Made by a program: the position numbers and the translations under genes. A DNA stretch of 64,000 bases, from contig NZ_NPZB01000001.1 of assembly GCF_002895945.1 (NCBI RefSeq), positions 1,007,501 through 1,071,500 on the forward strand. Reading direction: 5' to 3'. The notes below the pieces were generated by a model. That model was not told the origin of the DNA. It ran no database searches and was given only the letters and a program-made list of their open reading frames with translations. Below are positions 34,261 through 57,047 of the stretch, in pieces; the first letter of the stretch is position 1, and each line of letters opens with the position of its first letter. The stretch is from Solilutibacter silvestris. Its GTDB lineage: Bacteria; Pseudomonadota; Gammaproteobacteria; Xanthomonadales; Xanthomonadaceae.

Positions 34261-34605
34261 TCAGTGCGGGGCACCGCAAGTAGCGGTAGCGGTATCACAG
34301 TGGGTGCTCTTACTACCCGGCTTCTGCGGGGAGAACGTAACAGATTGGTTCGTGCTCACCTGGGCGGCGGTCAGCGTCATGGTGCCGTTGCAAGCCTTGC
34401 CCGGAGAAGCCGGGACGGGGGTCAGGTTCGACATCACCGCAGCCACGGCCGAGTTCATGTAGGCCTTGGCTTCGGCCTGGCAAGCGCCTTCGGCTGACTT
34501 GATGCGGTAATTGTTGTAAGCCGGCAGCGCGATGGCGGCCAGGATGGCGATGATCGCAACGACGATCATCAGTTCGATCAGGGTAAAGCCTTGCTGCTTC
34601 TTCAT
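34261..34605 (-). CDS. pilA: Type IV major pilin, duplicate copy B
   Basis: 114 residues, with leader MKKQQG and the same N-terminal helix as copy A; only two residues differ near the C-terminus (His and Thr here). It has the best promoter of the three pilins: a GG-N10-GC sigma-54 site 105 bases upstream and paired GTGAC/GTCAC motifs further up. It lies next to pilR. This is the most likely main pilin gene and the parental copy. Confidence 0.95.
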
Positions 34606-34626
34606 TTGGATAATCCCCATGGAGTG
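34304..34626 (-). repeat. 323-bp exact direct repeat, copy B
   Basis: Partner of 33731-34053. Sequence upstream of 34626 contains the good sigma-54 promoter, whereas the sequence upstream of copy A does not. The duplication therefore carried the gene and ribosome-binding site but not the promoter. Confidence 0.92.
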
Positions 34627-34709
34627 ATTGTTCATGTGCCACGTGCGGCCGGGCCGGGGGATCCAAGTCCTTTGGAGCCTGACGACAGGACACGTGCCGG
34701 AAGAGTGAA

Positions 34710-34724
34710 GCAGGGGATGTGCCA
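34710..34724 (-). promoter_or_regulatory. Sigma-54 promoter of pilin copy B
   Basis: On the minus strand TGGCACATCCCCTGC has a perfect TGGCAC -24 element and a TGC -12 element with the correct ten bases between GG and GC. The transcript would start near 34698, giving a leader of about 93 bases. Confidence 0.82.
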
Positions 34725-34775
34725 AACGTCAATCCCCGCTAACTCATTGATGAATCTCGGTTGGTAGTGCGAAGA

Positions 34776-34824
34776 ACGTCACTTTGCCGCCTTCATGAAG
34801 GTGAATGTGACGTGAAATGTCACG
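34776..34824 (-). promoter_or_regulatory. Candidate PilR upstream activating region
   Basis: Three related elements lie 66-114 bases upstream of the -12 element: CGTCAC at 34778-34783, and GTGAC (34807-34811) paired with GTCAC (34819-34823) as an inverted repeat with seven bases between. The distance fits enhancer sites of NtrC-family activators, and the TGTC core resembles the element described for PilR in Pseudomonas. Direct evidence is lacking. Confidence 0.45.
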
Positions 34825-34849
34825 ATTGGTCAGGCCATTGCTGGCCGAG

Positions 34850-36262
34850 TTACTCCATCCCCAGCTTCTTCAACTTGTAGCGCAATGCCCGGAAAGTGAT
34901 GCCGAGCGCGGCTGCTGTCTTGGTCTTGTTGTAGCGGTTTTCCAGCAGGGCTTTTTCGATGGCGGCGCGTTCCAGTTGCTCCATGGCGCCGGTGAGGTCG
35001 CCATTGGCGCTGGGCGCGGCGACATCCATCGGTGCGGACACCGTCGTCGTTGCGGGTGCGGCGACTGCTTGCGGCTCGGGAGCGGGAACAGACGCAGCCA
35101 CCACCGCACCCTGCGGCAAACGCAGGTCGCTGGCGTGGATCAGTTCGCCGTCGGCGAGGGTCATCGCGCGTTCCAGGGTGTTTTCCAGTTCGCGGATGTT
35201 GCCGGGGAAGGGGTAATCGCGCAGGGCGGCGAGGGCGTCATCGGATAACGACGGCGGCGTGGCGAGGCCGTGGCGTTCCGCCAGTCTGGCGAGGATGGCA
35301 TTGCACAGGATCGGCAGGTCGTCGCTGCGTTCGCGCAGGGGCGGGACGCGCAGTTCGATCACGTTGATGCGGTAGTACAGGTCGTGGCGGAAGCCACCCT
35401 GTTCGACCAGGGTCGCCAGATCCTTGTGGGTGGCGGAGAGGATGCGCACGTCTACCTGTTGCTCGGCTTGGCCGCCGACCGGCCGCACTGATTTTTCCTG
35501 GATGGCGCGCAGCAGTTTCACCTGCATCGCCAGCGGCAGTTCGGCGACTTCGTCGAGGAACAGGGTGCCGCCGTTGGCCGCCTGGAACAGGCCTTCCTTG
35601 TCGGCGTGGGCGCCGGTGAAGCTGCCTTTCCTGTGGCCGAAGAATTCGCTTTCCATCAGTTCGGCGGGAATCGCGCCGCAGTTGACCGGCACGAAGCTGC
35701 CATTGGCGCGCGGGCCGCTCTGGTGGATGGTGCGGGCGACCAGTTCCTTGCCCGATCCCGACTCGCCATGGATGTAGACCGGCGCCTGGCTGCGCGCGAC
35801 CTTGTCGATGGTCTGGCGCAGTGCCTGCATCGCCGGCGACTGTCCGAGCATGCGCCCGGCCGGGGATTGGGCGTGTGCGGTTTCGCGTTCGGAGCGCAGC
35901 CGCAATGCGTTGCGCACCAGTTCGCGCAGGATATGGAGATCGACCGGCTTGCTGACGAAGTCGAAGGCGCCGCGCTTGAGCGCTTCCACCGCGGCTTCGA
36001 CATTGCCGAACGCGGTGATCATCGCCACCGGCGTGCCCGGATGCGTGGCCGCGATATGGGTGATCAGGTCCATGCCCGAGCCATCGGGCAGGCGCATGTC
36101 GGTGAGGCAGAAGTCGAACTCGTGGCTGGCCAGTTGCGACCGGGCGGCGGACACGGTGGCAGCGGTCTCCACGCGCAAGCCCATCCGCGTCAGGGTGACC
36201 ACCAGCAATTCGCGGATGTCGCGCTCGTCATCGACCACAAGTGCGCTTTGCGTGTCCGCCAT
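34850..36262 (-). CDS. pilR: PilR, sigma-54-dependent response regulator of pilin genes
   Basis: 470 residues. The receiver domain (about 5-120) has the phosphoacceptor Asp at 55 (LTDMRLPDG). The AAA+ domain has Walker A GESGSGKE near 165, GSFTGA (the loop contacting sigma-54, with Ser for the commoner Ala) near 213, Walker B GGTLFLDEVAE and the sensor II region. A Pro/Ala-rich linker leads to a Fis-type helix-turn-helix in the last 45 residues. It activates pilin transcription, consistent with the sigma-54 sites next door. Confidence 0.96.
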   Translation of the reverse strand: MADTQSALVVDDERDIRELLVVTLTRMGLRVETAATVSAARSQLASHEFDFCLTDMRLPDGSGMDLITHIAATHPGTPVAMITAFGNVEAAVEALKRGAFDFVSKPVDLHILRELVRNALRLRSERETAHAQSPAGRMLGQSPAMQALRQTIDKVARSQAPVYIHGESGSGKELVARTIHQSGPRANGSFVPVNCGAIPAELMESEFFGHRKGSFTGAHADKEGLFQAANGGTLFLDEVAELPLAMQVKLLRAIQEKSVRPVGGQAEQQVDVRILSATHKDLATLVEQGGFRHDLYYRINVIELRVPPLRERSDDLPILCNAILARLAERHGLATPPSLSDDALAALRDYPFPGNIRELENTLERAMTLADGELIHASDLRLPQGAVVAASVPAPEPQAVAAPATTTVSAPMDVAAPSANGDLTGAMEQLERAAIEKALLENRYNKTKTAAALGITFRALRYKLKKLGME

Positions 36263-36292
36263 GCGTGAATTCGGATTGTCTCGGGGGAAGGA

Positions 36293-37912
36293 TCAGTTTA
36301 GCGCGACACCTGCGTCGTGGTTGGCGGCAGCGGTGGCGCCGGGCAGGCGCAGGCGGAAGCAGCTGCCGAAGGGCAGGCGCAGGTAGCTGAGTTCGCCCTG
36401 GTTGGCGTGCGCCAGTTCGCGGGCGATGTGCAGGCCGAGGCCGGTGCCGTGTTCCGAGGTGGTGAAGAACGGGCGGAACAGGTTGCGTTCGTCCGCTTCC
36501 GCAATCCCGGGGCCGGTGTCCATGACATCGATCGCGGGCTGGTGGGCTTCATGGCGCACGCACAGGGTGATGCGCGCCGGTTCGCCGGGCATGCGGCCGT
36601 AATAGCGCGCATTGCTGACCAGCACCAGCAGGATCTGGTGGACGTGCTTGGGATCGGCCAGCGCCGGGGCTTCGTCCTTTGGCACCACCACTTCCAGGGT
36701 GTCGGCATCGAGCGGATAGCTGCGGCGGTATTCCTCGGCGAATTCTTCGGTGACGCTGCGCAGGTCGATCGCCTGCGGGTTGGCGCGTTCGCGCCGGGCC
36801 ATGCTCAGCACGCTTTCGACGATGCCGTTCATGCGCGTGGTCTGCTGGCGCACGATTTCCAGCATCTTGCGGTCCATCGCGGTGAGATCGTCGGATTCCT
36901 CCAGCAATTGCGTGGAATAACTGATGGCGGAAAGCGGGTTGCGGATTTCGTGGGCGAGGCTGGCGGAGAAGCGTCCCAGCGCGGCAAGGGTGATGCCTTC
37001 GGCGCGCCGCGACGCCTGCGAGGTGTCATCGAGGAAGACCAGCACTTCATCGCCACCGGCATGCAGGCGCAGGAATTGGGGGAGGATTTCCGCCTGGTCG
37101 GTTCCCATGCGCATCGGTTGCAGGTTGATCGCGCCGTCGCCCTGCCAATCGCGCAGGCGTTGCGCCAGTTCTGGTGATGCCAGTCCGATCGGGCGATGGC
37201 CGTCGCCTGCTTCGCCGAGCAGGGCGAGTGCGGCTTCGTTGGCGAGGCGGATCAGTCCATCGCGTTCGACGATCACCACGCCGGTCGGCATGCGCCGGAT
37301 GATCAGTTCGTTGAGTGCGGCGAGATCGGCGACTTCCTCGCCACGGCGGCTGGCTTCGGTTTCGCCGCGCACCATGCGCTGGCCCATCACGTGCGTCAGC
37401 CAGGCGATGGCGAAATAACTGGCACCGAAAATCAGCGGTTCGATCCACGGGTGATCCCACGCTTCGCCGAACAATTCGCGCCAGATCAGCGGGGCAAGGA
37501 AGGTGAGGGTGGCGAGTGCCGCGGTGATCAACCCGAACATCAGCGACAACAGCAACGAGGCCGCCGCGACGTTGAGGATGAGCATGATCGCGATCACGGG
37601 CGTCGCCTGCGGGATCACGTTGATCGCCGCATTGGCGAAGAAAACGTCGAGCAGGGTGCCGAGGGCGATCTGCGGGGCGACGCGCAGCCGCGAGCGCGTG
37701 AGCAGCAACAGGACCAGCGCGCAGCCGAGGTAGGCGCAACAGATCCACGCGATCAGCCCGGCGTTGTCGATATCACCCAGCCAGTGGCCACCGATGCCCA
37801 TCGCCATGGCAGCGATCATCGCCGCGGCGAATGAGCGATAGATGGCGTAGGCACGCAGTTCACGCTGGACGGTGCTGTCGGCGAAGCGCTGGATGGATCG
37901 GGTCGGGGGCAC
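36293..37912 (-). CDS. pilS: PilS, membrane sensor histidine kinase
   Basis: 539 residues from a GTG with AAGGAG five bases upstream (37918-37923), the only good start. Six hydrophobic segments occupy about residues 22-190, then a PAS-like domain (about 205-300), the H-box [14 protein letters not shown] (His near 321) and the ATPase domain with VLVSNARYY (N-box), [10 protein letters not shown] and GTGLGLHIA. PilS senses pilin in the membrane and controls PilR phosphorylation in Pseudomonas. It is divergent from sucC. Confidence 0.95.
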
Positions 37913-37963
37913 GGGATCTCCTTGGGTCCGGGCGAGTGTATCGGGCGGCCGTCGGCCCCGGTT

Positions 37964-37992
37964 TTGCCGCAGTGCGACATCTGCGCGACAAT
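37964..37992 (+). promoter_or_regulatory. Candidate sigma-70 promoter of sucCD
   Basis: TTGCCG and GACAAT, each with four of six consensus bases, are separated by 17 bases and lie about 60 bases before the sucC ATG. Confidence 0.5.
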
Positions 37993-38050
37993 AGGGGGCT
38001 GGCCCGGCCCCCTGCCGCGGTCCGTCTCCCCTTCCGACTACCGGTGCGCC

Positions 38051-39220
38051 ATGAATTTCCACGAGTACCAGGCCAAACAATTGTTCGGCGACTACGGCAT
38101 TGCCGTCCCCAAGGGCCAGGTGGCCTATTCCCCAGACGAGGCGGTGACCGCTGCCAAGGCCATCGGCGGCGATTTCTGGGTGGTGAAAGCCCAGATCCAC
38201 GCGGGCGGCCGCGGGAAGGCTGGCGGCGTCAAGCTGGCCAAGACCCTGGATGAGGTGAAGCAGTACGCCAAGGCGATGCTCGGCACCAGGATGGCGACCT
38301 ACCAGACCGCCGGCGTCGAGCTGCCGGTCGACAGCGTGCTGATCACCCAGGCCACCAATATCGACAAGGAGCTGTACCTGTCGGTGCTGGTCGATCGCGC
38401 CACCCAGACCGTCACCTTCATCGCGTCGGCGGAAGGCGGCATGGACATCGAGCAGGTCGCCCACGAGAAGCCCGAGGCGATCAAGTCCTTGCACGTGAAC
38501 TACGTTGAAGGTTTGCAGCCGTACCAGTGCCGCGATCTCGCCTTCGCGCTCGGCCTGAACGCCAAGCAGGCCGGCCAGCTGACCAAGATCATGCTCGGCC
38601 TCTACAAGCTGTTCAACGACAAGGACCTGGCGCTGGTCGAATTGAACCCGCTGGCGATCCTCGACGACGGCAACCTGGCCGTGCTCGACGGCAAGATCAA
38701 TTCCGACGACAACGCCAACTTCCGTCATCCCGAACTCGTCGCGATGCGCGACGTGCGCCAGGAAGACGAGACCGAAGTGCTGGCCTCGAAGTACGACCTC
38801 AACTACGTGACCATGGAAGGCAATATCGGTTGCATGGTCAACGGCGCCGGCCTGGCGATGGCGACGATGGACGTGATTTCGCTCAACGGTGGTTCGCCGG
38901 CCAACTTCCTCGATGTCGGTGGCGGCGCCAACAAGGAGAAAGTCACCGAGGCGTTCAAGTTGATCCTGCGCTCGCCGACGGTGAAGGCGATCTTCGTCAA
39001 CATCTTCGGCGGCATCGTCCGCTGCGACATGATCGCGGAAGGCATCATCGCTGCGGTCAAGGAAGTGGGCGTCAAGGTGCCGGTGATCGTGCGTCTTGAA
39101 GGCACGAATGTCGATGCCGGCAAGGAACTGCTGAAGAACTCCGGCCTGGCGATCATTCCGGCCGACGACATCAACGATGGCGCGAAGAAGGCGGTTGAAG
39201 CCGTCAAGAACGCTGCCTGA
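38051..39220 (+). CDS. sucC: SucC, succinyl-CoA synthetase beta subunit
   Basis: 389 residues, the usual length. With SucD it converts succinyl-CoA to succinate with formation of ATP or GTP in the TCA cycle. The ATP-grasp domain begins [17 protein letters not shown], with [12 protein letters not shown] near 48 and ELNPLAIL. The C-terminal CoA-ligase domain has [10 protein letters not shown] and [12 protein letters not shown]. It is 22 bases from sucD. The pilS-sucCD adjacency is typical of Xanthomonas relatives. Confidence 0.98.
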
Positions 39221-39242
39221 TCCCACCTTCAAGGAAAACGAC

Positions 39243-40118
39243 ATGTCAGTCTTGATCAACAAGAACACGAAGGTGCTGGTGCAGGGCTTCACCGGCTCGC
39301 AGGGCACCTTCCACGCGCAACAGATGCTCGATTACGGCACCAAGGTGGTCGGTGGCGTGACGCCGGGCAAGGGTGGAACCGAACACCTCGGCCTGCCGGT
39401 GTTCGATACCATGCAGGAAGCCGTCGCGAAAACCGGCGCCGATGCGTCGGTGATCTACGTGCCGCCGCCGTTCGCCGCCGACGCGATCATGGAAGCCGCT
39501 GCTGCCGGCATCAAGGTGATCGTGTGCATCACCGAAGGCATCCCGGTGCTCGACATGATGCGCGTCAAGAACGTGCTGAAGAACACGCCGGATGCGCGCC
39601 TGATCGGGCCGAACTGCCCAGGCGTGATCACCCCCGGCGAGTGCAAGATCGGCATCATGCCGGGCCACATCCACATGCCGGGCAAGATCGGCATCGTCTC
39701 GCGTTCGGGCACGCTGACCTATGAAGCGGTGAAGCAGACGACGGATGCCGGCCTCGGCCAGTCGACCTGTATCGGCATCGGTGGCGATCCGATCAATGGA
39801 ACCAACTTCATCGACGCGCTGAAGCTGTTCCAGGAAGATCCGCAGACCGAAGGCATCATCATGGTCGGCGAAATCGGTGGCAGCGCCGAAGAAGAAGCGG
39901 CCGAGTACATCGCCAAGCATGTCACCAAGCCGGTGGTCGGTTTTATCGCCGGTGCATCGGCGCCGAAGGGCAAGCGCATGGGTCACGCCGGTGCGATCGC
40001 GTCTGCGGGTTCGGGCACTGCCGAAGGCAAGTTCGCCGCGATGGAGAAGGCGGGCGTCACCACGGTGAAGTCGCCGGGCGATCTTGGCGCGGCGATCGCC
40101 AAGCGTTTGGCGAAGTGA
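39243..40118 (+). CDS. sucD: SucD, succinyl-CoA synthetase alpha subunit
   Basis: 291 residues. The CoA-binding Rossmann domain begins with [12 protein letters not shown] (about 14-25), and the phosphohistidine loop [17 protein letters not shown] near residue 246 carries the active-site His. [19 protein letters not shown], in the middle, is the family signature. A Rho-independent terminator follows about 55 bases downstream. Confidence 0.98.
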
Positions 40119-40172
40119 TTGTCATGTGCGTCCGATCCTGATCGGGTCGGCGCGCACAAATCGGTAAACGTG

Positions 40173-40203
40173 GAAGGCCGCCTTGTGCGGCCTTTCTCGT
40201 TTT
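40173..40203 (+). terminator. Terminator after sucD
   Basis: AAGGCCGC and GCGGCCTT pair around CTTGT, followed by TCTCGTTTT. It is located 55 bases after the sucD stop and ends the sucCD transcript before the adhesin gene. Confidence 0.85.
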
Positions 40204-40311
40204 CGTCACTCAAGCAGGCGAACACCTGATTTCAGGGGTGCCGGTATTCCGGAGGCGGGATTAACCTTGATGAACGCGCGCGGAGTACGCGTGGCACAGG
40301 GGATTTCTGTA

Positions 40312-43300
40312 ATGAACACATCGGACTTGGGCCGGCGTTCGCGTCGTGTTTGTGCGGTATGGGGAGTCGCGCGGCGACTTTGGGCGATTTCCCTGCTGAT
40401 GTTGGCGACGATGCTGCCGATTCAGGCTCTCGCACAAAACGCTACTACAGTCACCATCAGCGGCGCCAGCCCGGCCACATATTTCACCGCCGCAGGACAG
40501 ACGCTGACGTTCCAGGTCACGCTCTGGACTGGTAACACCGACATCGACAGCCTTGTATTTACCAGTGGCAGTCCTGCGGGCATGTCGGCCTTGAACTGTC
40601 CGGCAGGAACTACAGCGATCATGTCGTCCGCCGTGTGTACTTTCACCTACACGACGACAGCAATGGACGTCGCATTGGGTCACATATCAGCTTTGGGCCG
40701 TTGGCGTGCGACGCGGCCGACTGGGGCAGCGCGTTCTGGAACGACCAATACACTGACCGTTCCCTACGTGGCGGCTTCCCCACCGACCGTAACCGGCTTG
40801 TCGCCTGCCAAGGGTGTTTTGACCGGCGGCAACACCGTGGTGATCAACGGGACAGGGCTGGCCTGGGCCACCGCCGTGAATTTCGGCGGGGTGTCTGCAA
40901 CATTCACGATCAGCAACGACTCGCAGATATTGGCCACGGCACCTGCCGGAGCCGTCGGTATCGTCGACGTGACGGTGACCACGCCTGGTGGCACCAGCTC
41001 GACAGGCGTGGTAGATCAGTACACCTATGTGGCGCCGCCCACGGTGACATCGATCTCGCCGACGTCCGGGCCAACTGGCGGTGGCACCACGGTCGTGATC
41101 ACCGGCACCGGTTTCGCAGCAGCACCTTCGGCCGGCGCGGTGAAGTTTGGCGCGACCAACGCGTCCTATACCGTCAACAGCAATACCCAGATCACCGCGA
41201 CCTCACCGGCGGGGGCAGTCGGAACGGTCGACGTGATGGTGACCACGCTTGGTGGCACCAGTGCGACCAGTGCGGCGGATCAATACACCTACGCGCCTGC
41301 ACCGACGGTGACAGCGATCTCGCCGACGTCCGGCCCGACGAGTGGCGGAACCACAGTCGTCATCACCGGTAACGGATTCGCGTCGGCACCCCCGACAGGT
41401 GCCGTGAAGTTCGGTGCGACCACGGCGTCCTACACCATCAACAGCAATACCCAGATCACCGCGACCTCACCGGCGGGGGGGGCCGGAACGGTTGACGTCA
41501 CTGTGACCTCGCTTGGCGGCACCAGCGCGACCAGCGCGGCGGATCAATATACCTACGTCCCCACACCGACAGTCACGGCGATCTCGCCGATAGCCGGGCC
41601 GACTGGCGGTGGCGCCACTGTCGTCATTACGGGCGCCGGATTCAACTACGCACCGGGATCTGGCGCGGTGAAATTCGGGGCGACCGTTGCTTCCTACACC
41701 GTCAACAGCGCCACCCAGATCACCGCGACTACGCCTGCAAACCCGGCAGGCACGTACGACGTGACTGTGACCACGCCGGGCGGTACCAGCCCGACCAGCG
41801 CGGCAGATCAGTACACTTATATGCCCGCACCGACGGTGACATCGATCTCGCCCACATCGGGATCGCCCGCGGGCGGCACATCGGTGACGATCAGCGGAGC
41901 CAACTTCAGCGGCGCGACCGCGGTGACCTTCGGCGCAACCGCCGCGTTCGGTTTCACCATCAACAGCGCTACGTCGATCACTGCCACGGCGCCTGCCGGA
42001 ACCGGTACGGTCGATGTCCGCGTGACCACAAGCGGCGGCACCAGCGCGACCAGCGCTGCCGATCAGTACACCTACATCGCCGCGCCTGTAGCCAATGCCG
42101 TCAGTGCCACGGTGGCGTATGGCAGCAGCAACAATCCAATCACGTTGAGCCTCACTGGCGGCGTGCCGACCAGCGTCGCGATCGCGACGGCGGCAGCGCA
42201 CGGCACGGCCACGACATCGGGCACTTCGATCACTTACACCCCGACCGCAAGCTACAGCGGTCCGGACAGTTTCACTTACACCGCGACCAATGCTTCGGGC
42301 ACGTCGGCGCCGGCAACGGTCACGATCACTGTGAATCCGACGAGCATCACGGTGTCGCCGACAACGCTGTCGAGCGCAACCGTCGGGGCAGCCTACAACG
42401 CAACGATCACGACCAGTGGTGGCACTTCGCCATACAGCTATGCTGTCACTGCAGGCGCAGTGCCAGCTGGCATGTCGCTGAACAGCAGTACCGGGGTGTT
42501 GTCGGGAACGCCGACTGCAGGTGGCACGTACAACTTCACGTTGACTGCGACCGATTCGTCCACTGGCACGGGTACACCGTTCACTGGCAGTCGTGCCTAC
42601 TCGTTGACAGTCAATGCGCCGACGATCACGATCTCTCCGGCATCGTTGCCCGCTGGCGCGGTTGGTACGACCTACAGCCAGACGATCACGGCCAGTGGCG
42701 GGACTGCGTCCTACAGCTACGCCGTGACCGCTGGTGCATTGCCGGCAGGCATTACCTTGGGCAGCGGTGGGCAGTTGTCGGGCACGCCGGTCACAAGTGG
42801 CACGTTCAATCTCACCGTGACCGCAACCGATTCGTCCGCGGGTGCCGGGCCGTATACGGGGAGCCGTGCCTATGTGCTCACGATTTCCGCACCGTCGATT
42901 GTGGTATCGCCAGCATCGTTGCCGAACCCGCAAGTTGCCGTGTCCTACAACACCACGATCACGGCCACTGGCGGTACTGCGCCATATACCTATGCATTGA
43001 GCGGTGGCGCACTGCCAACGGGCATTGCGTTGAGCAGCGCAGGTGTGCTGTCAGGCACGCCGACTGCTTCGGGCAGTTTCAATTTCACCGTGAAGGCAAC
43101 CGACGCGAACGGTTTCACCGGCAGTCAGGCATATTCAACCGTTGTGGTTGTGCCAACGCTGGCATTGAATCCCGCATCGCCGTTGCCGACTGGAATCGCG
43201 GAAATCGCCTACAGCCAGACCATCACGGCCAGCGGCGGAACTGCTCCATATGGTTATTCGCTCGTCGCCGGTGCGTTGCCTGCTGGCCTTTCGCTGAGTA

Positions 43301-46300
43301 ACGCTGGTGTGCTGTCAGGAACACCGACGGTCGCCGGGACGTTCACCTTCACGGTGAGGGCGACCGACAGCAGCACCGGCACAGGTTCTCCATTCTCGAT
43401 CAGCCGGAACTACACGCTGACGATCACTGCGCCGACGATCAGCGTGTCGCCGTCGATGTTGCCCAATGCATCGGCAGGCGTCGCCTACAGCCAGACCATC
43501 ACGGCCAGTGGCGGAACTGCGCCATACAGCTATTCGCTCGCCGCCGGTGCATTGCCGCCAGGAGTCGCGCTGAGCGGTGCCGGTACGTTGTCGGGAACGC
43601 CGACCGCCGCAGGCACGTTCAACTTCACGGTCACGGCAACCGATGCTCATGGCTTCACTGGTAGCCAGGCGTATACGCTGGTGATCAGTGCGCCAACAAT
43701 CACGTTGTCGCCGGTATCGCTGCCAGCCTCGACGGTGGGAGTTGCATACAGCCAGACGATCACTGCAAGCGGTGGCAATGGCAGTTACACGTATTCGCTG
43801 GCAGGTGCGTTGCCAACAGGCGTGTCGTTGAACAGCAGCGGTGCGTTGGCAGGAATACCGACTGTCCCGGGCAACTACAACTTCACCGTCACGGCGACGG
43901 ATGGATTCGGCTTCACCGGAAGTCACGCGTATGCGCTGGCAGTGGGTTCACCGACGATCACACTGACGCCGACAACGCTGCCGAGCGCGACCGTGGCGAC
44001 GGCCTATCCGACACAGACGTTCACGGCGAGTGGCGGCAGCACGCCCTACATGTATTCGCTGACGGCGGGCGCGTTGCCGGCAGGGATATCGCTGAATAGT
44101 GGCGGGACGCTGTCGGGAACACCGACCACTGCGGGAACCTTCAACTTCACCATCACGGCGACGGATGCCTACGGCTCGACGGGTTCGGCCAGCGTTTCGA
44201 TCACGGTCGCCGCTGCTACCCAAGCGATCATCAACTTCAAGGCCAACCCGGTTGCACCAGTGTTCACGCCGAACGGCACCTTCGCGATCAGTGCGACGGG
44301 TGGTGCATCAACCAGTCCGGTGGTGTTCGCATCGACCACGACCAGTATCTGCACCGTGAGCGGCTCAACGGTGACGATGAAGTCCGCGGGCACGTGTTCG
44401 CTGGTGGCGGACCAGGCAGCGGATGCCAATTACACCGCGGCAACGCAAGTGAAGCTGGATGTGACGATCACGGCGGCGACGCAGGCGATCACCAACTTCA
44501 AGGCCAATCCTGCAGCACCGGTGTTTGCACCGAATGGCGGCTTCGCGATCAGTGCGACGGGTGGCGCATCGACCAGCCCGGTGGTGTTCGCATCAACCAC
44601 GACCAACGTCTGCACCGTGAGCGGCTCAACGGTGACGATGAGGTCCGCGGGCACGTGTTCGCTGACGGCGGACCAGGCGGCGGATGCCAACTACATCGCG
44701 GCAACGCAAGTGAAGCTGGATGTGACGATCACGGCGGCGGCGCAGGCGATCACCAACTTCAAGGCCAATCCAGTTGCACCAGTGTTCGCACCGAATGGGA
44801 CGTTCGCGATCTCCGCGACCGCAGGTGCATCGACCAGTCCGGTGGTGTTCGCATCGACCACGACCACCATTTGCACGGTCAGTGGTTCGACGGTGACGAT
44901 GAAGTCCGCGGGTACCTGCTCGTTGACGGCAGACCAGGCAACGGATGCCAACTACACCGCGGCACCGCAGGTGAAGCTGGATGTCGTCATCGCGGCGTCA
45001 GGTCCGGTGATCGGCTGGATCGGCGCCATCCACAAGACGCAGGGTGAAACGGCATTCGATCTTCCGGTGCCGACCAGCACCAGCACGGGCGCTTTCATCT
45101 ACACCAGTAGCAACACCTCGGTGGCGACGGTGAGTGGACGCACGGTGACGATCGTTGGCGGCGGTACCGCCACGCTGACGGCAACGCAGGCGGCAACCGC
45201 CAATTACACGGCTGGATCGGCGAGTACGACGCTGACCGTGGATACGCGTCCGGATCCGACCAAGGATCCCTCGGTGGCTGCGGGCCTGCAGGCCCAGGTC
45301 GATGCCAGCTTGCGTTTTGCCTCCGCACAGGAAGACAACGTGCGCGATCGCATGCGCCAGTTACGCATGGAGAAGGGCACGCCTTCCCACAACGGCCTGA
45401 CTTTGAGTGTCGGTGGACGCGGTGGTGCGGGCATGTCGTTGCCGGTCGGATTGGGCGCAGCAGGTGGTGCCGGCGCTGGTGGCATCAATGGTGGCTGGTT
45501 GGGCGGCAGCATCGTCTATGGCCAGCGCAGTGGCATGCCGGGCCGCGATGGCTACAACCTGCGCAGCGACGGCATCAGCTTCGGCATGGACCACGCCTTT
45601 GGTGACTACGTGCTCGGTGCGGCGCTCGGCTCTGGGTGGGGGGCGACCGACTTCGACGATGGTCGTTCCAAGCAGGATGCCAAGCATCGTGCGTTCACCC
45701 TCTACGGCTTGTGGCGCGGCGACGAGCACTGGTATGCCGAAGGCATGTTCGGCGTCGGGCAGTTGGACTTCAACCTCACACGCTGGAGTGATGTCGCCAA
45801 TGACGCCACATCGGCACAGCGCAAGGGCAACCAGCAGTACGGCTCCTTCAGCGTCGGTTACACGCAGCGCAACGACAGCTACGAGTTGACGGGCTACGGC
45901 CGCGTCGAAGGCAACCGCACCACGCTGGATGCGTATCAGGAGAGCGGACTCGGCATCTATGACCTGGCGTATCGCCGCCAGCGCATCGAGACCAGCCTCG
46001 CCGCAGTCGGCATCGAGGGCAGCTATCACGGCAAGCTCGGTGGCCATGCCTGGCGTCCGTTCTGGTCGCTGGAATATCGCGATGCCTTGAGCAACAGCGG
46101 CAACGCGGCGATCAATTACGCGGTGCAACCTGCAACCGGTGATTACCTGCTGGCATTGCATGGGTATGCCGACAGGATGTGGGCACTGGGTGGTGGTTTC
46201 GACCTGGAGCTGGCACGCGGTTGGCAGATGACCATCAACTACCGCCGCGAGGAGTACAACGGGCTCCGCAACAACGTGTTCGGGTTGCGGGTTGTATTCG

Positions 46301-46383
46301 GGCAAGGCGGGGGAATGCCTGCATACATGCTGACGCCGGCGCAGTACAAGGGCGCGTCGATCTATCCGCACCCGCAGCCCTGA
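40312..46383 (+). CDS. Giant Ig-repeat autotransporter adhesin
   Basis: 2,023 residues. The ATG at 40312 has AGGGGAT eight bases upstream; an ATG at 40270 would add 14 codons. Residues 1-42 look like an extended Sec signal ending ALAQ. Then come five IPT/TIG domains (about 157-588), one cadherin-like or Big_9-type domain (590-675), seven He_PIG-type Ig domains (676-1300), three almost identical 87-residue repeats (about 1301-1561) and a Big_2-like domain (to about 1643). A helical linker leads into an autotransporter beta-barrel (about 1730-2001). The barrel ends GLRVVFG, followed by an unusual 27-residue tail. It is a type Va-like secreted surface protein, probably adhesive. A G8 tract lies in the third IPT domain. 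Confidence 0.88.
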   Translation: MNTSDLGRRSRRVCAVWGVARRLWAISLLMLATMLPIQALAQNATTVTISGASPATYFTAAGQTLTFQVTLWTGNTDIDSLVFTSGSPAGMSALNCPAGTTAIMSSAVCTFTYTTTAMDVALGHISALGRWRATRPTGAARSGTTNTLTVPYVAASPPTVTGLSPAKGVLTGGNTVVINGTGLAWATAVNFGGVSATFTISNDSQILATAPAGAVGIVDVTVTTPGGTSSTGVVDQYTYVAPPTVTSISPTSGPTGGGTTVVITGTGFAAAPSAGAVKFGATNASYTVNSNTQITATSPAGAVGTVDVMVTTLGGTSATSAADQYTYAPAPTVTAISPTSGPTSGGTTVVITGNGFASAPPTGAVKFGATTASYTINSNTQITATSPAGGAGTVDVTVTSLGGTSATSAADQYTYVPTPTVTAISPIAGPTGGGATVVITGAGFNYAPGSGAVKFGATVASYTVNSATQITATTPANPAGTYDVTVTTPGGTSPTSAADQYTYMPAPTVTSISPTSGSPAGGTSVTISGANFSGATAVTFGATAAFGFTINSATSITATAPAGTGTVDVRVTTSGGTSATSAADQYTYIAAPVANAVSATVAYGSSNNPITLSLTGGVPTSVAIATAAAHGTATTSGTSITYTPTASYSGPDSFTYTATNASGTSAPATVTITVNPTSITVSPTTLSSATVGAAYNATITTSGGTSPYSYAVTAGAVPAGMSLNSSTGVLSGTPTAGGTYNFTLTATDSSTGTGTPFTGSRAYSLTVNAPTITISPASLPAGAVGTTYSQTITASGGTASYSYAVTAGALPAGITLGSGGQLSGTPVTSGTFNLTVTATDSSAGAGPYTGSRAYVLTISAPSIVVSPASLPNPQVAVSYNTTITATGGTAPYTYALSGGALPTGIALSSAGVLSGTPTASGSFNFTVKATDANGFTGSQAYSTVVVVPTLALNPASPLPTGIAEIAYSQTITASGGTAPYGYSLVAGALPAGLSLSNAGVLSGTPTVAGTFTFTVRATDSSTGTGSPFSISRNYTLTITAPTISVSPSMLPNASAGVAYSQTITASGGTAPYSYSLAAGALPPGVALSGAGTLSGTPTAAGTFNFTVTATDAHGFTGSQAYTLVISAPTITLSPVSLPASTVGVAYSQTITASGGNGSYTYSLAGALPTGVSLNSSGALAGIPTVPGNYNFTVTATDGFGFTGSHAYALAVGSPTITLTPTTLPSATVATAYPTQTFTASGGSTPYMYSLTAGALPAGISLNSGGTLSGTPTTAGTFNFTITATDAYGSTGSASVSITVAAATQAIINFKANPVAPVFTPNGTFAISATGGASTSPVVFASTTTSICTVSGSTVTMKSAGTCSLVADQAADANYTAATQVKLDVTITAATQAITNFKANPAAPVFAPNGGFAISATGGASTSPVVFASTTTNVCTVSGSTVTMRSAGTCSLTADQAADANYIAATQVKLDVTITAAAQAITNFKANPVAPVFAPNGTFAISATAGASTSPVVFASTTTTICTVSGSTVTMKSAGTCSLTADQATDANYTAAPQVKLDVVIAASGPVIGWIGAIHKTQGETAFDLPVPTSTSTGAFIYTSSNTSVATVSGRTVTIVGGGTATLTATQAATANYTAGSASTTLTVDTRPDPTKDPSVAAGLQAQVDASLRFASAQEDNVRDRMRQLRMEKGTPSHNGLTLSVGGRGGAGMSLPVGLGAAGGAGAGGINGGWLGGSIVYGQRSGMPGRDGYNLRSDGISFGMDHAFGDYVLGAALGSGWGATDFDDGRSKQDAKHRAFTLYGLWRGDEHWYAEGMFGVGQLDFNLTRWSDVANDATSAQRKGNQQYGSFSVGYTQRNDSYELTGYGRVEGNRTTLDAYQESGLGIYDLAYRRQRIETSLAAVGIEGSYHGKLGGHAWRPFWSLEYRDALSNSGNAAINYAVQPATGDYLLALHGYADRMWALGGGFDLELARGWQMTINYRREEYNGLRNNVFGLRVVFGQGGGMPAYMLTPAQYKGASIYPHPQP
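41475..41482 (+). repeat. Poly-G (G8) tract in the adhesin gene
   Basis: Eight consecutive G residues in the third IPT domain; the equivalent place in the preceding IPT unit has only five, followed by C. Loss or gain of one base would shift the frame of the downstream 80 percent of the gene. Such tracts mediate phase variation in other surface proteins. Confidence 0.9.
44212..44994 (+). repeat. Three tandem 261-bp repeats in the adhesin gene
   Basis: Units of exactly 261 bases (about 44212-44472, 44473-44733 and 44734-44994) encode 87-residue domains starting near QAI-NFKANP. They differ at only a few codons. High DNA identity with exact period means homologous recombination could change the copy number. 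Confidence 0.93.
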
Positions 46384-46403
46384 GCGGGAGGAATGGAAAA
46401 TGA

Positions 46404-46428
46404 AGAGGCCGCCTTCGGGCGGCTTTTT
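46404..46428 (+). terminator. Terminator after the adhesin gene
   Basis: GCCGCC and GGCGGC pair around a TTCG tetraloop and are followed by five T residues, 24 bases after the stop codon. It is a strong Rho-independent signal and isolates the adhesin from ccdAB. Confidence 0.92.
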
Positions 46429-46433
46429 CATGG

Positions 46434-46470
46434 TTGACACGCAATTGATATGCGCATAAGTTATGCGCAT
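46434..46470 (+). promoter_or_regulatory. ccdAB promoter with palindromic operator
   Basis: A perfect -35 box TTGACA is at 46434-46439. Seventeen bases on, the -10 region falls in a palindrome with 10-base arms ATGCGCATAA and TTATGCGCAT around one central G (46450-46470). A repressor on this palindrome would block RNA polymerase, as expected for autoregulation by a CcdA-CcdB complex. Confidence 0.75.
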
Positions 46471-46496
46471 TGATGATGCGAATCAGGAGATCTGCC

Positions 46497-46769
46497 ATGG
46501 CATTGCGTGTCCGTGAAACTGCCGTCGCAGGTCACAAGCGCTCGGCCAACCTCAGCGTCAACGCCGAATTGCTCGATGACGCCAAGGCGCTCGACATCAA
46601 CCTGTCGGCCACGCTGGAAAAGGCGCTGGACGAAGCCGTGCGCGCCCGCAGGCGCGAGCAGTGGCTGGAGGAAAATCGCGAGGCGATCGCCGCGTACAAC
46701 GCGCGCATCGAGCGAGACGGGATGGCGGGTGATCATGTGCGCGCATTCAAGGCAAGAACCGGGGCATGA
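46497..46769 (+). CDS. ccdA: CcdA-like antitoxin
   Basis: 90 residues. The N-terminal part is a ribbon-helix-helix DNA-binding unit (SANLSVNAELLDDAKALDIN, then LSATLEKALDEAV), and the C-terminal part is a charged, Arg-rich tail that would bind the toxin and ends in AFKARTGA. CAGGAGA lies nine bases before the ATG; an earlier in-frame ATG at 46470 falls inside the operator. It overlaps ccdB by four bases (ATGA), the standard coupling of this module. Confidence 0.9.
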   Translation: MALRVRETAVAGHKRSANLSVNAELLDDAKALDINLSATLEKALDEAVRARRREQWLEENREAIAAYNARIERDGMAGDHVRAFKARTGA

Positions 46770-47080
46770 GCCAGTTCTTCGTCTATGCCAATGCAGACGC
46801 TGCCTCGAAGAAGCAGATTCCATACTGGCTGAACGTGCAAAGCGACTTGATCGGCATGGTGGATTCGCGAGTCGTGGTGCCGTTGATCGCGATCGAGCGC
46901 GCAGGAACGCCGATCAGTCGGTTGATGCCGTTGCTTGAGGTGGATGGCAAGAACATGGTGCTGGATACCACGCAAATCACCAATGCACCCAAGCGGATGC
47001 TCGGGAAGAAAGTGGTCGATTTGTCCCGGGAGCGATCGGTCATCATGGCCGCGTTGGACATGCTGATTTCAGGAATCTGA
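46766..47080 (+). CDS. ccdB: CcdB-type gyrase toxin
   Basis: 104 residues, the normal CcdB length. It begins MSQFFVYANADAASKKQIPYW (described in part), with MPLLEVDGKNMVLDTTQI and the C-terminal helix SVIMAALDMLISGI. In F-plasmid CcdB the last three residues, WGI, bind gyrase; here the corresponding ending is SGI, so the Trp is replaced by Ser. Poisoning of DNA gyrase is known for the family; potency here may be altered. It lies four bases from nadE. Confidence 0.9.
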   Translation: MSQFFVYANADAASKKQIPYWLNVQSDLIGMVDSRVVVPLIAIERAGTPISRLMPLLEVDGKNMVLDTTQITNAPKRMLGKKVVDLSRERSVIMAALDMLISGI

Positions 47081-47084
47081 TTCG

Positions 47085-48722
47085 ATGACGCATCGGCTCC
47101 GCATCGCGCTCGCGCAATTCGATTTCCCCGTCGGTGATGTCGCTGGCAACGCGCGGCGCATCATTGATTTGATCGCTGAAGCGCGCGACGTCCATCGCGC
47201 CGATATCGTGATGTTCCCGGAACTCGCGGTGTCCGGCTATCCGCCCGAAGACCTGCTGTACCGGCCGTCGTTCCTGCGCGATTGCGAGCTTGCCCTCGAT
47301 GACGTGGCGAGATCGGTTAGCGGTATCGTCGCTGTCGTCGGCTGGCCGCAGTCGGCGGGCGCCGTGGTCTACAACGCTGCCAGCGTATTGCGCGATGGCG
47401 GCATCGACCGCAGCTACCGCAAGCGTGAACTGCCCAATTACGCGGTGTTCGATGAACGTCGCTATTTCGATGTCGACCCCGATCGCGACGACTGCGTGTT
47501 CGAGGTCAAGGGCGTGCCGGTCGGGTTGGTGATCTGCGAGGACCTGTGGTTCCCGGAACCGATTGCATCGACAGTCAAGGCCGGTGCGCGGTTGCTGCTG
47601 GTGCCGAATGCATCGCCGTTCGAACGCGACAAGTCTATACAACGCGATGCCTTGATGGCCGAACGCAGCCGCGACAACGGCGTGGGTATCGCCTATCTCA
47701 ACGTGGTCGGCGGGCAGGATGCGCTGGTGTTCGATGGCGCATCGGTGCTGGCCGATGGCGATGGCACGCTGCATCCGGCGGCGGAAGCGTTCGCCGAGCA
47801 CTGGCTGGTCGCGGATTACGATGCGTCGTCGCGCAAATTCACGCGTGTGCAGTGGCCGGCGGAAACCGACGAAAGTCGCGAAAGCCTGGCGTGGCGCGCG
47901 ATCGTGCGCGGCATTCGCGATTACTGCGGCAAGAACGGCTTCACCAGGACATGGCTTGGGCTGTCGGGCGGCATCGATTCCTCATTGGTGATGGCGCTGG
48001 CGGTCGATGCATTGGGTGCCGAGAACGTCACCGCGGTGCGGATGCCGTCGCGCTATACCGCCGATCTCTCCAACGATCTCGCGCAGCAGCAGTGCGATGC
48101 GCTGGGCGTGCGCCTGCTGGCGTTGCCGATCGAGCAGCCGTTCGAGGCCTATCTGCACACCTTGCGCGAGACCTTCGCCGGCAAGGACGCCGATGTCACC
48201 GAGGAAAACCTGCAGTCGCGCATCCGTGGCGCGCTGATGATGGCGATGAGCAACAAGTTCGGCGGTCTGCTGTTGACCACCGGCAACAAGAGCGAATACG
48301 CGGTCGGTTACGCCACGATCTACGGCGACATGTGCGGTGGTTACGCGCCGATCAAGGATCTCTACAAGACCGAGGTGTTCGCATTGTCGCGCTGGCGCAA
48401 TGCCGTTGCTGGTCGCGAGGAGATTCCGGTCGCGGTGATCGAGCGCCCGCCCAGCGCCGAATTGCGCGAGAACCAGAAGGATCAGGATTCGCTGCCGCCC
48501 TACGACGTGCTCGACGCGATCCTGCTGCGCCATGTCGACCAGGAGCAGTCGCGCGATGAAATCGTCGCCGAAGGGTTCGATCCCGCGATCGTCGACAGGG
48601 TGGTGCGATTGGTGCGCATCAGCGAGTGGAAGCGTCATCAGGCCGCGCCCGGACCGAAGGTATCGCGGCGTGCGTTCGGCAAGGAGCGCCGCTATCCGAT
48701 CAGCAACGGATATCGCGGATAG
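47085..48722 (+). CDS. nadE: NadE, glutamine-dependent NAD+ synthetase
   Basis: 545 residues. The N-terminal nitrilase-type glutaminase has Glu46 (FPELAVSGYPPEDLL), a Lys in the YRKRELPNYAVFDE stretch and Cys in LVICEDLWFPE. The C-terminal synthetase has the P-loop LSGGIDSSLV near residue 293 and the TGNKSEYAVGY motif. It makes NAD+ from deamido-NAD+, ATP and glutamine. The start lies four bases after ccdB. In relatives nadE follows sucCD; the adhesin and ccdAB appear to be inserted between them. Confidence 0.97.
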   Translation: MTHRLRIALAQFDFPVGDVAGNARRIIDLIAEARDVHRADIVMFPELAVSGYPPEDLLYRPSFLRDCELALDDVARSVSGIVAVVGWPQSAGAVVYNAASVLRDGGIDRSYRKRELPNYAVFDERRYFDVDPDRDDCVFEVKGVPVGLVICEDLWFPEPIASTVKAGARLLLVPNASPFERDKSIQRDALMAERSRDNGVGIAYLNVVGGQDALVFDGASVLADGDGTLHPAAEAFAEHWLVADYDASSRKFTRVQWPAETDESRESLAWRAIVRGIRDYCGKNGFTRTWLGLSGGIDSSLVMALAVDALGAENVTAVRMPSRYTADLSNDLAQQQCDALGVRLLALPIEQPFEAYLHTLRETFAGKDADVTEENLQSRIRGALMMAMSNKFGGLLLTTGNKSEYAVGYATIYGDMCGGYAPIKDLYKTEVFALSRWRNAVAGREEIPVAVIERPPSAELRENQKDQDSLPPYDVLDAILLRHVDQEQSRDEIVAEGFDPAIVDRVVRLVRISEWKRHQAAPGPKVSRRAFGKERRYPISNGYRG

Positions 48723-48730
48723 CACCAACG

Positions 48731-48758
48731 AAAACGGGACCCGCAGGTCCCGTTTTTT
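48731..48758. terminator. Bidirectional terminator between nadE and bamD
   Basis: ACGGGACC and GGTCCCGT pair around CGCA, flanked by A4 on the left and T6 on the right, so it can terminate both the nadE transcript and the convergent bamD transcript. Confidence 0.93.
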
Positions 48759-48779
48759 CATGCATCCGATGCGCCGCGG

Positions 48780-49643
48780 TCAATGACGACCGATCGCCTC
48801 GTCGCCACCGCGCGCGAACGGATTCAGGCGATGGAAGATCGACGAATCCTTCGGCCAGCCGCCCTTCAACCACGGATGCTGGGGATCGTTCTGGGCCAGC
48901 ACGCGCTTGGCATCGTCGGCCAGCGGCTTGTTGCCGAGGCGCGTGTAGGCTTCGGCCAGGATGGCGACGGCGTCGTTCTGGTACTTGCTCTGCGGATAGG
49001 TTTCCAGCAGGTACTTGGCACGGTCGGCGGCACCGACCCAGGCGTCGCGGCGCAGGTAATAGACAGCGGTGCCGAGCTCGAAGCGCGCGAACTGGTCGCG
49101 CAGGTAGATCATGTGCTGGCGGGCGTCACCGGCGTAGCGGCTGTTGGGGAAGCGTTCGACGATCAGGCCGAAATCGTTGTAGGCCTGCATCGGCGCGGCG
49201 AGGTCGCGCTGGCTCATGTCGAGGTCGAACACGTGCTGCAGGAACACCGCGTTGCGCGACTGGTTGGCCAATCCGCGCAGGTAGTACATGTACGGCACGT
49301 TGCGATTGGTCGGATAGGTGCGCAGGAAGCGGTCGATCGAGGAGATCGCGTCGTCGTTGTTGTTCGACTTGTACTGCGCGTAGGCCATTTCCATCAACGC
49401 CTGCTCGGCGTACGGCCCGTACGGGTACTGCGCGATCAGCCGCTTGAAGTCCTCTTCGGCGTTGCCGTAGCTGCCGCTCATGACCTGCTGGTGCGCCTTG
49501 TCGTAGATCGTCGCGACGGGCTGGCCCTCGACGTCCTTGCCCTTCTTCTTGGACTTGCCGAACATGCTGCAACCGGACATGGCCACGGTCAGGGTCAGCA
49601 GGAGCACGATGGCCGGTGTGGTGGAGCGCAGGCGTAGGGTCAT
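48780..49643 (-). CDS. bamD: BamD, outer-membrane assembly lipoprotein
   Basis: 287 residues from the ATG at 49643. A lipoprotein signal peptide ends in VAMSGC, with the lipid-modified Cys near residue 24. Five TPR-like repeats follow, e.g. YKSNNNDDAISSIDRFLRTYP and FPNSRYAGDARQHMIYL. BamD is the essential lipoprotein partner of BamA in outer-membrane protein insertion, which would include the autotransporter and TonB receptors here. It is divergent from rluD. The start choice is weak in its ribosome-binding site but strong in signal-peptide fit. Confidence 0.95.
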   Translation of the reverse strand: MTLRLRSTTPAIVLLLTLTVAMSGCSMFGKSKKKGKDVEGQPVATIYDKAHQQVMSGSYGNAEEDFKRLIAQYPYGPYAEQALMEMAYAQYKSNNNDDAISSIDRFLRTYPTNRNVPYMYYLRGLANQSRNAVFLQHVFDLDMSQRDLAAPMQAYNDFGLIVERFPNSRYAGDARQHMIYLRDQFARFELGTAVYYLRRDAWVGAADRAKYLLETYPQSKYQNDAVAILAEAYTRLGNKPLADDAKRVLAQNDPQHPWLKGGWPKDSSIFHRLNPFARGGDEAIGRH

Positions 49644-49762
49644 GGATCGCAGGCAGGACGCGGGGAAAGCGGAACCGCGATAATACCCCAGCCGATCCGG
49701 TGGCCCGTCCGTCCGGATGAACGCCACCCGACTCTCTCCATTATCCGAGCTCGTCCCCAATC

Positions 49763-50758
49763 GTGACCGACTCCGCACCCACAGACTCCGAAACCCTCGC
49801 CGCCACCGTGCCCTACGCACTGGCCGGCAAACGCCTGGACGCCACCCTGGCCGAACTGTTCCCGCAATATTCGCGGGCGCGCCTGGCGGGCTGGATCAAG
49901 TCCGGCAACGTCACCGTGGATGGCGAAGGCGCCCGCCCGCGCGACACCCTGCGCGGCGGCGAGGCGATCGCGCTGACCGTGGTACTGGAGGCCCAGACCC
50001 ACGCCGAGCCGCAGGACATCCCGCTGACGATCCTCTACGAGGACGCCGATCTCTTCGTGATCGACAAGCCGGCAGGCCTGGTGGTGCATCCGGGCGCCGG
50101 CAACCCCGATGGCACCCTGGTCAACGCCTTGCTGTTTCGCGATCCCTCGCTGGCGGCGCTGCCGCGAGCCGGCGTGGTCCATCGCCTCGACAAGGACACC
50201 TCGGGCGTGATGGTGGTGGCGCGCACGCTGCCGGCGCAGACAAAATTGGTGGAGATGCTGGCCGCCCGCGATGTCCATCGCCAATATCTCGCCATCGTCG
50301 TTGGCGCGATGGTGTCCGGTGGCACCGCCGATGCCGCGATCGATCGCCATCCGCGCGATCGCCTGCGCATGACCGTGCGCGAAGATGGCCGCGACGCGGT
50401 GACCCATTACCGACTGCGCGACCGCTACCGTGCGCACACCGCGCTGGAGTGCCGGCTGGAAACCGGACGCACCCACCAGATTCGCGTCCATATGCAGCAC
50501 ATCAAGCATCCCATCGTCGGTGATCCGCTCTACGGCGGTGCGCTGCGACTGCCCAAGGGCGCCACGGACGAGTTGACGGCGGCGTTGCGCGGCTTCAAGC
50601 GCCAGGCCCTGCACGCGGAAGTGCTGGAATTCGCCCACCCGATCACCGGCGTGACCATCCGCTGCCAGGCCGATGTGCCCGCGGACATGCGTGGATTGAT
50701 GAAGGCGCTGCGCGAAGACACCCGCGCCCACGACGAGGCCAGCGCGGGCCGCCGATGA
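49763..50758 (+). CDS. rluD: RluD, 23S rRNA pseudouridine synthase
   Basis: 331 residues from a GTG start. An S4 domain lies at about 20-80 ([19 protein letters not shown]). The catalytic domain has [14 protein letters not shown] with the active Asp near residue 143, and [26 protein letters not shown] in two parts. RluD modifies positions 1911, 1915 and 1917 of E. coli 23S rRNA. The last four bases overlap pgeF. The bamD-rluD-pgeF order is widely conserved. Confidence 0.96.
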
Positions 50759-51504
50759 GCCGCGCGTGGATCGTAGCCGATTGGCCGGCGCCGCCACGCG
50801 TCCGTGTCGTGACCACGACGCGGCATGGGCTCGGGGTGTCGCAAGCACCGTTCGATCATCTCAACCTTGGGCTGCGCAATGGCGATACTGTCGACGCGGC
50901 GCTGGAGAATCGGCGCTTGCTTGAAGCCGCGTTGGAACTGCCGTCATCGCCACGCTGGTTGCGGCAGGTGCATGGAACGGCTGTCGTGCGCTTCGAGAAA
51001 GAAGGGTCGCATTCCGATGAACCCGAAGCCGATGCGTCCATGACCTCGACACCCGGCGTGGTGCTCGCCATCCTCACCGCCGACTGTTTGCCGGTGGTGG
51101 TGGCCGCGCGCGATGGCAGCGAAATCGCGGCCGCGCACGCCGGCTGGAAAGGCCTGTCGGGTGGAGTGCTGGAAGCGACCATCGCCGCGATGCAAACATC
51201 GCCCCACGATTGCATCGCATGGCTGGGGCCGGCCGCAGGTCCGCAGGCCTACGAAATCGGTGAAGACGTGCGCGACGCCTTTCTTGCCCATGATCGCCGT
51301 GCCGAGTCCGCCTTCGTGCCGACGCGTCCCGGGCACTGGTTGATCGATCTCTACGCCATCGCCCGTCAACGGCTCGCCGACGCCGGTGTGCGCGAAGTGC
51401 ATGGCGGCACCCATTGCACCATCACCGAATCACGGACATTTTTCTCGCATCGTCGCGACCAGCGCACGGGTCGGATGGCGACGCTCGCATGGATCGAATC
51501 TTGA
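50755..51504 (+). CDS. pgeF: PgeF (YfiH), multicopper-oxidase-like peptidoglycan editing factor
   Basis: 249 residues. The family motifs are [44 protein letters not shown] (in parts) and [19 protein letters not shown]. The His and Cys ligands of the zinc/copper site are present. YfiH proteins act on purine nucleosides and protect peptidoglycan from wrong L-Ser incorporation. The start is coupled to rluD (ATGA). Confidence 0.95.
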
Positions 51505-52052
51505 GCATCACCTTGTTCCAGCGCCTGCTTGGCGCCGAGTTCTTTCACCTGGCACCGGCGATCAAGGAATTGCACGGTCGCCATGGTGACTTCCGTCATG
51601 CGGGAGTCGCCAGCGTCCGCCGCGGCCGCGGTCCGTTGAAAGCGCTGTTGGCGCGCATCGCCGGATTGCCGCCGACGATGGAGGACGCGCCGATCGAAGT
51701 GCGTTTCAACAGCACGGCTGACGGCGAAGTCTGGCGGCGTCGCTTTGGTACGGCCGCGATGCAGTCACGCCTGCGTGCTGGCGATGGATTGCTGGTGGAA
51801 CGCCTCGGGCCATGTACGTTCGGTATACGCCTGGTGCGCATCGGCAAGGAACTGGCGTGGACGGTGGAACGCGCGCGCCTGTTCGGCATCATGCAGCTGC
51901 CGGCGACATTGTTCGATGGCGTGCGTTGTCGCGAATCGGAAGACGAGGCGGGCCGTTACCGCTTCTTCGTCGAAGCGCGATTGCCGGTGATCGGACTGCT
52001 GATTCGCTACGAAGGTTGGCTGCAGCCGGCAGATGCGGTCACTGCAGGTTGA
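51489..52052 (+). CDS. DUF4166 protein
   Basis: 187 residues starting 16 bases before the pgeF stop; a longer start inside pgeF is less likely. The pattern LFQRLLGAEFFHLAPAIKELHG at the start and GEVWRRRFG in the middle, ending with PVIGLLIRYEGWL, matches DUF4166 of unknown function. The overlap suggests coexpression with pgeF. The end overlaps the convergent DUF937 gene by 14 bases. Confidence 0.75.
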   Translation: MDRILSITLFQRLLGAEFFHLAPAIKELHGRHGDFRHAGVASVRRGRGPLKALLARIAGLPPTMEDAPIEVRFNSTADGEVWRRRFGTAAMQSRLRAGDGLLVERLGPCTFGIRLVRIGKELAWTVERARLFGIMQLPATLFDGVRCRESEDEAGRYRFFVEARLPVIGLLIRYEGWLQPADAVTAG

Positions 52053-52791
52053 GCTGCTTCAGCCAGGGATTGAGCAAGCCGCTCCACCACGCGTAGTAGA
52101 CGCCTCCTGCGACCAAGGCGATCACGATCAGCCACACCAGCCAACCCCAGCCGCCTTGCTTGCGCGGCTGCGGCCTTGAGTGGAATTGCCTGGGATCGGT
52201 GGTTGCGGCGAACCCGGCAGGCGCGACGCCTGCGACCGCCGCCGCCATCGCCTCGGCGCGACTGGCCGTCGGCATCGCCAAGGGGATGGAATTCGGGGAG
52301 CGCATCGTCGTTGATGGAGTTGGTTGCGACACGACCGGGCGCAGCGATTCCGCCAGCGGGATCACATGCGGTTCGGGTTCTTCGGGAACGACAGTGTCCT
52401 CCACCCTTTGTTCATTCGAGTGTGTCGATATGACGGCACCCGGCATGCGTCGGCCCGGGGTGAGTTCGGCGACCAATCGCGGCAACACGCCGGCGATCGC
52501 CGCTGCCAATGTCGCGCGACTGGTGCCGAGGCGGTTGCTCCAATCGTTGAGCAGGCCCTGTCCGAACACGGTGCCGACATCACCGGCATTGAGCAGGCGT
52601 TGACTCGCGGGATTGCCGATCCATTCGGAGACCAGTTCGCCATGGCCCTGTTCGCGAAAGCCTTCGACGAAGCCGCCGAAGCCGCCGCGACGATCATTGA
52701 AGATATAGCCGACCAGCAGGCCAAACAGCTCGGGGCTGCGATCGCCCAATCCGTAACGGTCGGACAAGTCGCTCACTACGGCATCGAACAT
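52039..52791 (-). CDS. DUF937/YidB-like protein with C-terminal membrane anchor
   Basis: 250 residues. Residues 1-110 are YidB-like: an FDAVVSDLSDRYGLG start, GGFGGFVEGFREQGHGELVSEWIG (two parts) and a conserved WS in the GLLNDWSNRLG stretch. A Pro/Ser/Ala-rich linker follows and one hydrophobic segment at about 215-238 just after a basic RPQPRKQGG. That makes it a probable tail-anchored inner-membrane protein. Function unknown. Confidence 0.72.
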   Translation of the reverse strand: MFDAVVSDLSDRYGLGDRSPELFGLLVGYIFNDRRGGFGGFVEGFREQGHGELVSEWIGNPASQRLLNAGDVGTVFGQGLLNDWSNRLGTSRATLAAAIAGVLPRLVAELTPGRRMPGAVISTHSNEQRVEDTVVPEEPEPHVIPLAESLRPVVSQPTPSTTMRSPNSIPLAMPTASRAEAMAAAVAGVAPAGFAATTDPRQFHSRPQPRKQGGWGWLVWLIVIALVAGGVYYAWWSGLLNPWLKQLNLQ

Positions 52792-52945
52792 CGGGGCTCT
52801 CCGGTAGAGCGGCGCCCCCCGCACCACATGGTTGAACATGAATGTATGCGTCGATGCTAACGGTCGAAGTGTTGTCGTTCCTAAACGGCGCCGGAACAAA
52901 AAGTGAATACGTACGAATACCAATGCTCGGAACGTGGGCAAGTTC

Positions 52946-54259: not shown

Positions 54260-54325
54260 GTCGGCGTGGTTCGGGCGAGGAATTGACCTGACGATAACGC
54301 AGGCATCGCCCGGCCGCAGCAGTGT

Positions 54326-54353: not shown

Positions 54354-54404
54354 CAGGATATTGTTGGCCGTCATGCAGGCGGCGATTCAATCGAGGATTT
54401 CTCC

Positions 54405-56993: not shown

Positions 56994-56994
56994 A

Positions 56995-57026: not shown

Positions 57027-57047
57027 GTTGCGGTGGTCGCGAGGAAA

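Follow-up and report, generated by a model that had tools for sequence, protein, structure and literature searches.

A run of eight Gs within a gene for a large autotransporter-like protein is very probably a chance homopolymer in a GC-rich repeat that is also rich in glycine and alanine, rather than an evolved on/off switch. We encountered this run (hereafter the G8) in a 64,000-nucleotide stretch of genomic DNA (the window), and we regard it as most likely an ordinary chance run because such runs occur at a near-chance frequency in the genome, because the tract is absent in relatives, and because the mismatch repair genes have been kept. A preliminary description of the window had proposed that the G8 might act as a phase-variation switch. 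Our analysis did not support this proposal: the tract is of near-chance length and unconserved, homologues have no comparable tract, the genome carries both mutS and mutL, and tracts of this kind are also found in non-surface genes and between genes. Phase variation at the G8 thus has no positive support, and we infer an absence of selected switching there. Low-rate slippage is nonetheless possible, in that mutants in which slippage had turned the gene off would arise now and then, as at any G8, at a rate that mismatch repair would hold down. The main alternative, which we consider unlikely, is that the G8 is a true contingency locus, at which slipped-strand mispairing toggles the surface protein at a high, reversible rate. 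More generally, in a genome of high GC content the presence of a G8 says little about phase variation until it has been compared with both the tract spectrum of that genome and the orthologues of the gene.

The G8 tract and the gene that contains it

Reading the window directly, we found GGGGGGGG at positions 41475–41482, an exact G8; no other G or C run in the window exceeds six. The codons that it spans, GCG GGG GGG GCC, specify Ala-Gly-Gly-Ala, with the two GGG codons corresponding to residues 390–391 when counted from the ATG at 40312. We picked this ATG for the signal-peptide-like stretch that appears to follow it and to end in ALAQ; by eye, the N terminus of the translation has a basic stretch, a hydrophobic stretch, and then ALAQ. 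With eight Gs, the frame is open from this ATG to the stop at 46383 and encodes 2,023 amino acids, 248 of which are glycine (28 specified by GGG) and 300 of which are alanine.

Pfam matches and the translation showed the protein to comprise a putative signal peptide, five TIG units, a Big_9 domain, seven He_PIG stretches, three near-identical Ig-like repeats, and an autotransporter beta-domain (Table 1). The match to the beta-domain model (PF03797) scored 113 bits against a cut-off of 26, which provides the C-terminal beta-domain expected of a type V protein, and the label 'adhesin' is suggested by this domain architecture. A surface architecture is also what a contingency locus might be expected to encode, and in other bacteria autotransporters are commonly subject to phase variation.

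The consequences of slippage would likewise suit a contingency locus, for which a tract is expected to lie in an ORF and to truncate the product when it changes by one base. Removing one G changed the translation to ...SPAGGPERLTSL, with a stop at codon 398, and adding one G changed it to ...SPAGGGRNG, with a stop at codon 395. Either slip removes everything beyond the first half of the third TIG unit, including the barrel (residues 1729–1977), whereas length changes of three bases in either direction keep the frame. Wherever the sequence allows a check, the preliminary description therefore proved correct: the sequence, the Pfam matches, and the repeat period together place the G8 in the third IPT/TIG unit of the 2,023-residue protein, the preceding unit has five Gs at the equivalent site, the gene is 'on' with eight Gs, and the gain or loss of one base stops translation early, with loss of the barrel.

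Table 1. Features of the autotransporter-like gene, in window coordinates.
Feature	Position	Strand	Basis
Autotransporter-like protein, 2,023 aa	40312..46383	+	Translation, Pfam, repeats
Five-unit TIG array	40774..42080	+	Repeat analysis and comparison with orthologue
Second TIG unit, G5 at 41211-41215	41038..41292	+	Pfam TIG match, residues 243-327
Third TIG unit, contains G8	41302..41556	+	Pfam TIG match (residues 243-327) plus the 264-nt unit period
G8 tract (last base of GCG, GGG, GGG, first base of GCC)	41475..41482	+	Read directly
Three direct repeats, period 261 nt, 81-89% identical	44203..45012	+	Repeat analysis
Autotransporter beta-domain, residues 1729-1977	45496..46242	+	PF03797, E 2e-32

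Origin of the tract and comparison with relatives

The five TIG units, which repeat with a period of 264 nt, are 61–84% alike, and units 2 and 3 are the closest pair, with 56 differences over 264 positions. At the tract site, unit 2 reads GCG GGG GCA GTC (a G5) and unit 3 reads GCG GGG GGG GCC, such that the two units are equal in length there and three substitutions separate them (41480 C>G, 41481 A>G, and 41483 T>C, written from unit 2 to unit 3). The G8, whose two GGG codons give Gly-Gly within the AGxxG segment of its TIG domain, probably came about by ordinary substitutions (C to G, A to G, and T to C) in a G5-bearing or similar ancestral unit. We also considered whether a Gly-Gly tract at this site might be conserved across the family and ruled this out, as the other units show GSA, AV, NPA, or HAA there. 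Because 264 is divisible by three, the TIG copy number could change in frame, and recombination between homologous units might alter the number of units while leaving the frame intact.

Among the 17 genomes of the genus (source counted), the gene was present in the source and in one other, G013, a draft whose public counterpart is a Lysobacter sp. MAG. The G013 copy is a true orthologue, as its upstream flank aligns with window positions 34520–40303 at 88%, and the downstream alignment, at 84%, covers 44824–46431 and 47096–57267. From the conserved start region to the last TIG unit, however, G013 has about 450 bp, compared with about 1,530 bp in the window, and its translation contains one TIG unit (L098, about 2350–3040) in place of the five found at 40774–42080. 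This single unit matches the last of the five, with HAA instead of GGA and no G tract. The contig is unbroken across the TIG region, and a collapse of TIG units in the assembly is not expected because the units are only 61–84% alike. The G013 contigs do break within the Ig-like tandem repeats (44203–45012), as expected for the assembly of near-identical repeats. Thus, instead of a tract that is kept in orthologues and varies in length, as would be expected of a contingency locus, we found one congeneric orthologue that does not have the tract-bearing unit at all.

Relatives of the barrel were found in 48 of 119 family genomes, and no G run of at least eight occurred in 17 homologue gene regions from the family, the maximum being seven within the longest frame (although in a few of the 17 regions the longest frame could be one other than that of the adhesin). 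DNA coding for the motif PAGGAGTVDV was found in none of 296 other family genomes, and a plasmid collection contained only distant TIG genes (64–75% identity). The protein resembles the large TIG/He_PIG autotransporters of Xanthomonadaceae and Rhodanobacteraceae (Lysobacter, Pseudoxanthomonas, and Dyella) in having the same barrel and an Ig-like passenger but differs from them in its number of TIG units and in its G8, which was absent from those examined.

The gene occupies the junction between sucD and nadE (window 40119–47084). In the congeners G010, G011, and G008, sucD lies directly before nadE, ~70 bp apart, and the junction without the autotransporter gene is found at loci L104, L106, L109, L112, and L114. 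Since congeners carry sucD and nadE side by side, the autotransporter gene is accessory as a whole. The between-species variation to which these sequences point is therefore in the presence of the entire gene, gained or lost at sucD–nadE, and in the number of TIG units.

Tract length, mismatch repair, and known switches

A contingency locus is expected to have a tract longer than the genome would produce by chance. We counted G and C runs by pattern over the whole genome (2,847,002 bases): 139 had a length of six, 14 had a length of seven, and six were longer still, among them a G10. Markov models of order 2, 3, 4, and 5, fitted to 300 kb of sequence picked regardless of tracts, predicted 4.1, 3.0, 2.3, and 2.5 runs of at least eight, respectively. 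Over the same models, the 20 observed runs of at least seven compared with 17–27 expected, and the 159 of at least six compared with 131–183 expected. The Poisson probability of at least six runs of eight or more was ~0.23 at the order-2 mean and ~0.03 at the lowest mean (2.25). The six runs are thus at most a mild excess, seen under the order-4 and order-5 models, and although that excess and its G10 weigh somewhat against a chance run, six runs against 2.3–4.1 expected, with no dominant class of long tracts, do not put tract length above genomic chance. When we shuffled the synonymous codons of the gene 20,000 times, a run of at least eight appeared somewhere in 8.7% of shuffles and a run of at least seven in 28%, with a G8 or longer falling at exactly 41475–41482 in 0.4%.

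Whether eight Gs would suffice for switching depends on the organism taken as the guide. The G8 would pass the cut-off applied to Campylobacter (seven or more), switching in C. jejuni is mediated by tracts of eight or more Gs (PMC6321876), and in Bordetella pertussis a C6 in bvgS switches (PMC1891110). It is nevertheless under the Neisseria cut-off of nine or more (PMC5953494). It also does not exceed the limit for Bordetella, which is likewise high in GC and was analyzed by a similar Markov test: under an order-2 model, runs longer than eight were above expectation there, making nine the calling limit, and one Bordetella tract showed instability only in alleles exceeding C8 (PMC1891110).

The presence of mismatch repair genes also argues against rapid switching, with both mutS (1,099 bits) and mutL (593 bits) scoring above their cut-offs. 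In Pseudomonas aeruginosa, which is high in GC and has mismatch repair, G:C runs are the main sites of indels, a result that would favor slippage at the G8 but that was measured in mismatch-repair-deficient lines; repair cuts the indel rate of this species about 230-fold, and almost all of the homopolymer indels occurred where repair was absent (PMC4702332).

As at the poly-G loci of Campylobacter and Neisseria, which include the phase-variable autotransporters NalP and MspA, a coding G run lies in an autotransporter gene and one-base changes truncate the product. The tracts at those loci, however, are mostly 9–10 or longer, are over-represented, persist at their loci across relatives, and have been seen to vary, whereas here a G8 occurs at near-chance frequency, is missing from the orthologue, and is known from one genome sequence. 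The resemblance to the Bordetella tracts (bvgS, tcfA, bapC, and sphB2) lies in the G or C runs in surface-protein genes of a high-GC proteobacterium, but in Bordetella runs longer than eight are in excess and there is polymorphism between species and strains (PMC1891110), and here there is neither a clear excess nor a series of alleles.

A more specific version of switching appears slightly more doubtful still, namely a slow poly-G switch that acts on a TIG-array autotransporter and was recently acquired together with the expanded array in a free-living, mismatch-repair-proficient Xanthomonadaceae lineage. A switching G8 would add a further case to a familiar class, in a family for which our search turned up little on the subject; our literature search for homopolymer phase variation in Lysobacter or Xanthomonas returned no relevant paper. 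That the G8 is instead an assembly or consensus error, with a true length other than eight, is highly improbable, for although homopolymers are the usual site of such errors, the G8 leaves all 2,023 codons open up to a complete beta-domain, a G7 or G9 would bring a stop within ten codons or so, and unit 3 is equal in length to unit 2 at the same place.

The other long runs of the genome

Returning to the reading of the G8 as a chance run, we considered where the other runs of at least eight lie. Three are in ORFs, encoding a HAD-hydrolase, a BrkB/YihY-like membrane protein, and an RHS-repeat protein (G8 or C8 runs at positions 1501–1508 of loci L003, L004, and L002, respectively), and two are intergenic, one of which sits just past the stop codon of a TonB-dependent receptor gene while the second is the G10, on the start side of a MarR gene. 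Besides the run studied here, the G8 runs of the genome include those at C1:1661895, C2:268666, and C2:821411. The phasomes of Campylobacter and Neisseria are sets of surface genes; the long runs of this genome have no such focus, and no phasome-like set of tracts in surface genes was found among its six runs of at least eight, which again argues against a contingency locus.

The G10 lies at C2:439750–439759 (L005 1501–1510), upstream of a gene for a MarR-type regulator, in an open frame that extends upstream of the likely start of that gene. With 0.04–0.09 runs of at least ten expected per genome under the Markov models, this run stands out as the most unusual G tract of the genome, and it is a more promising place to expect length variation than the G8.
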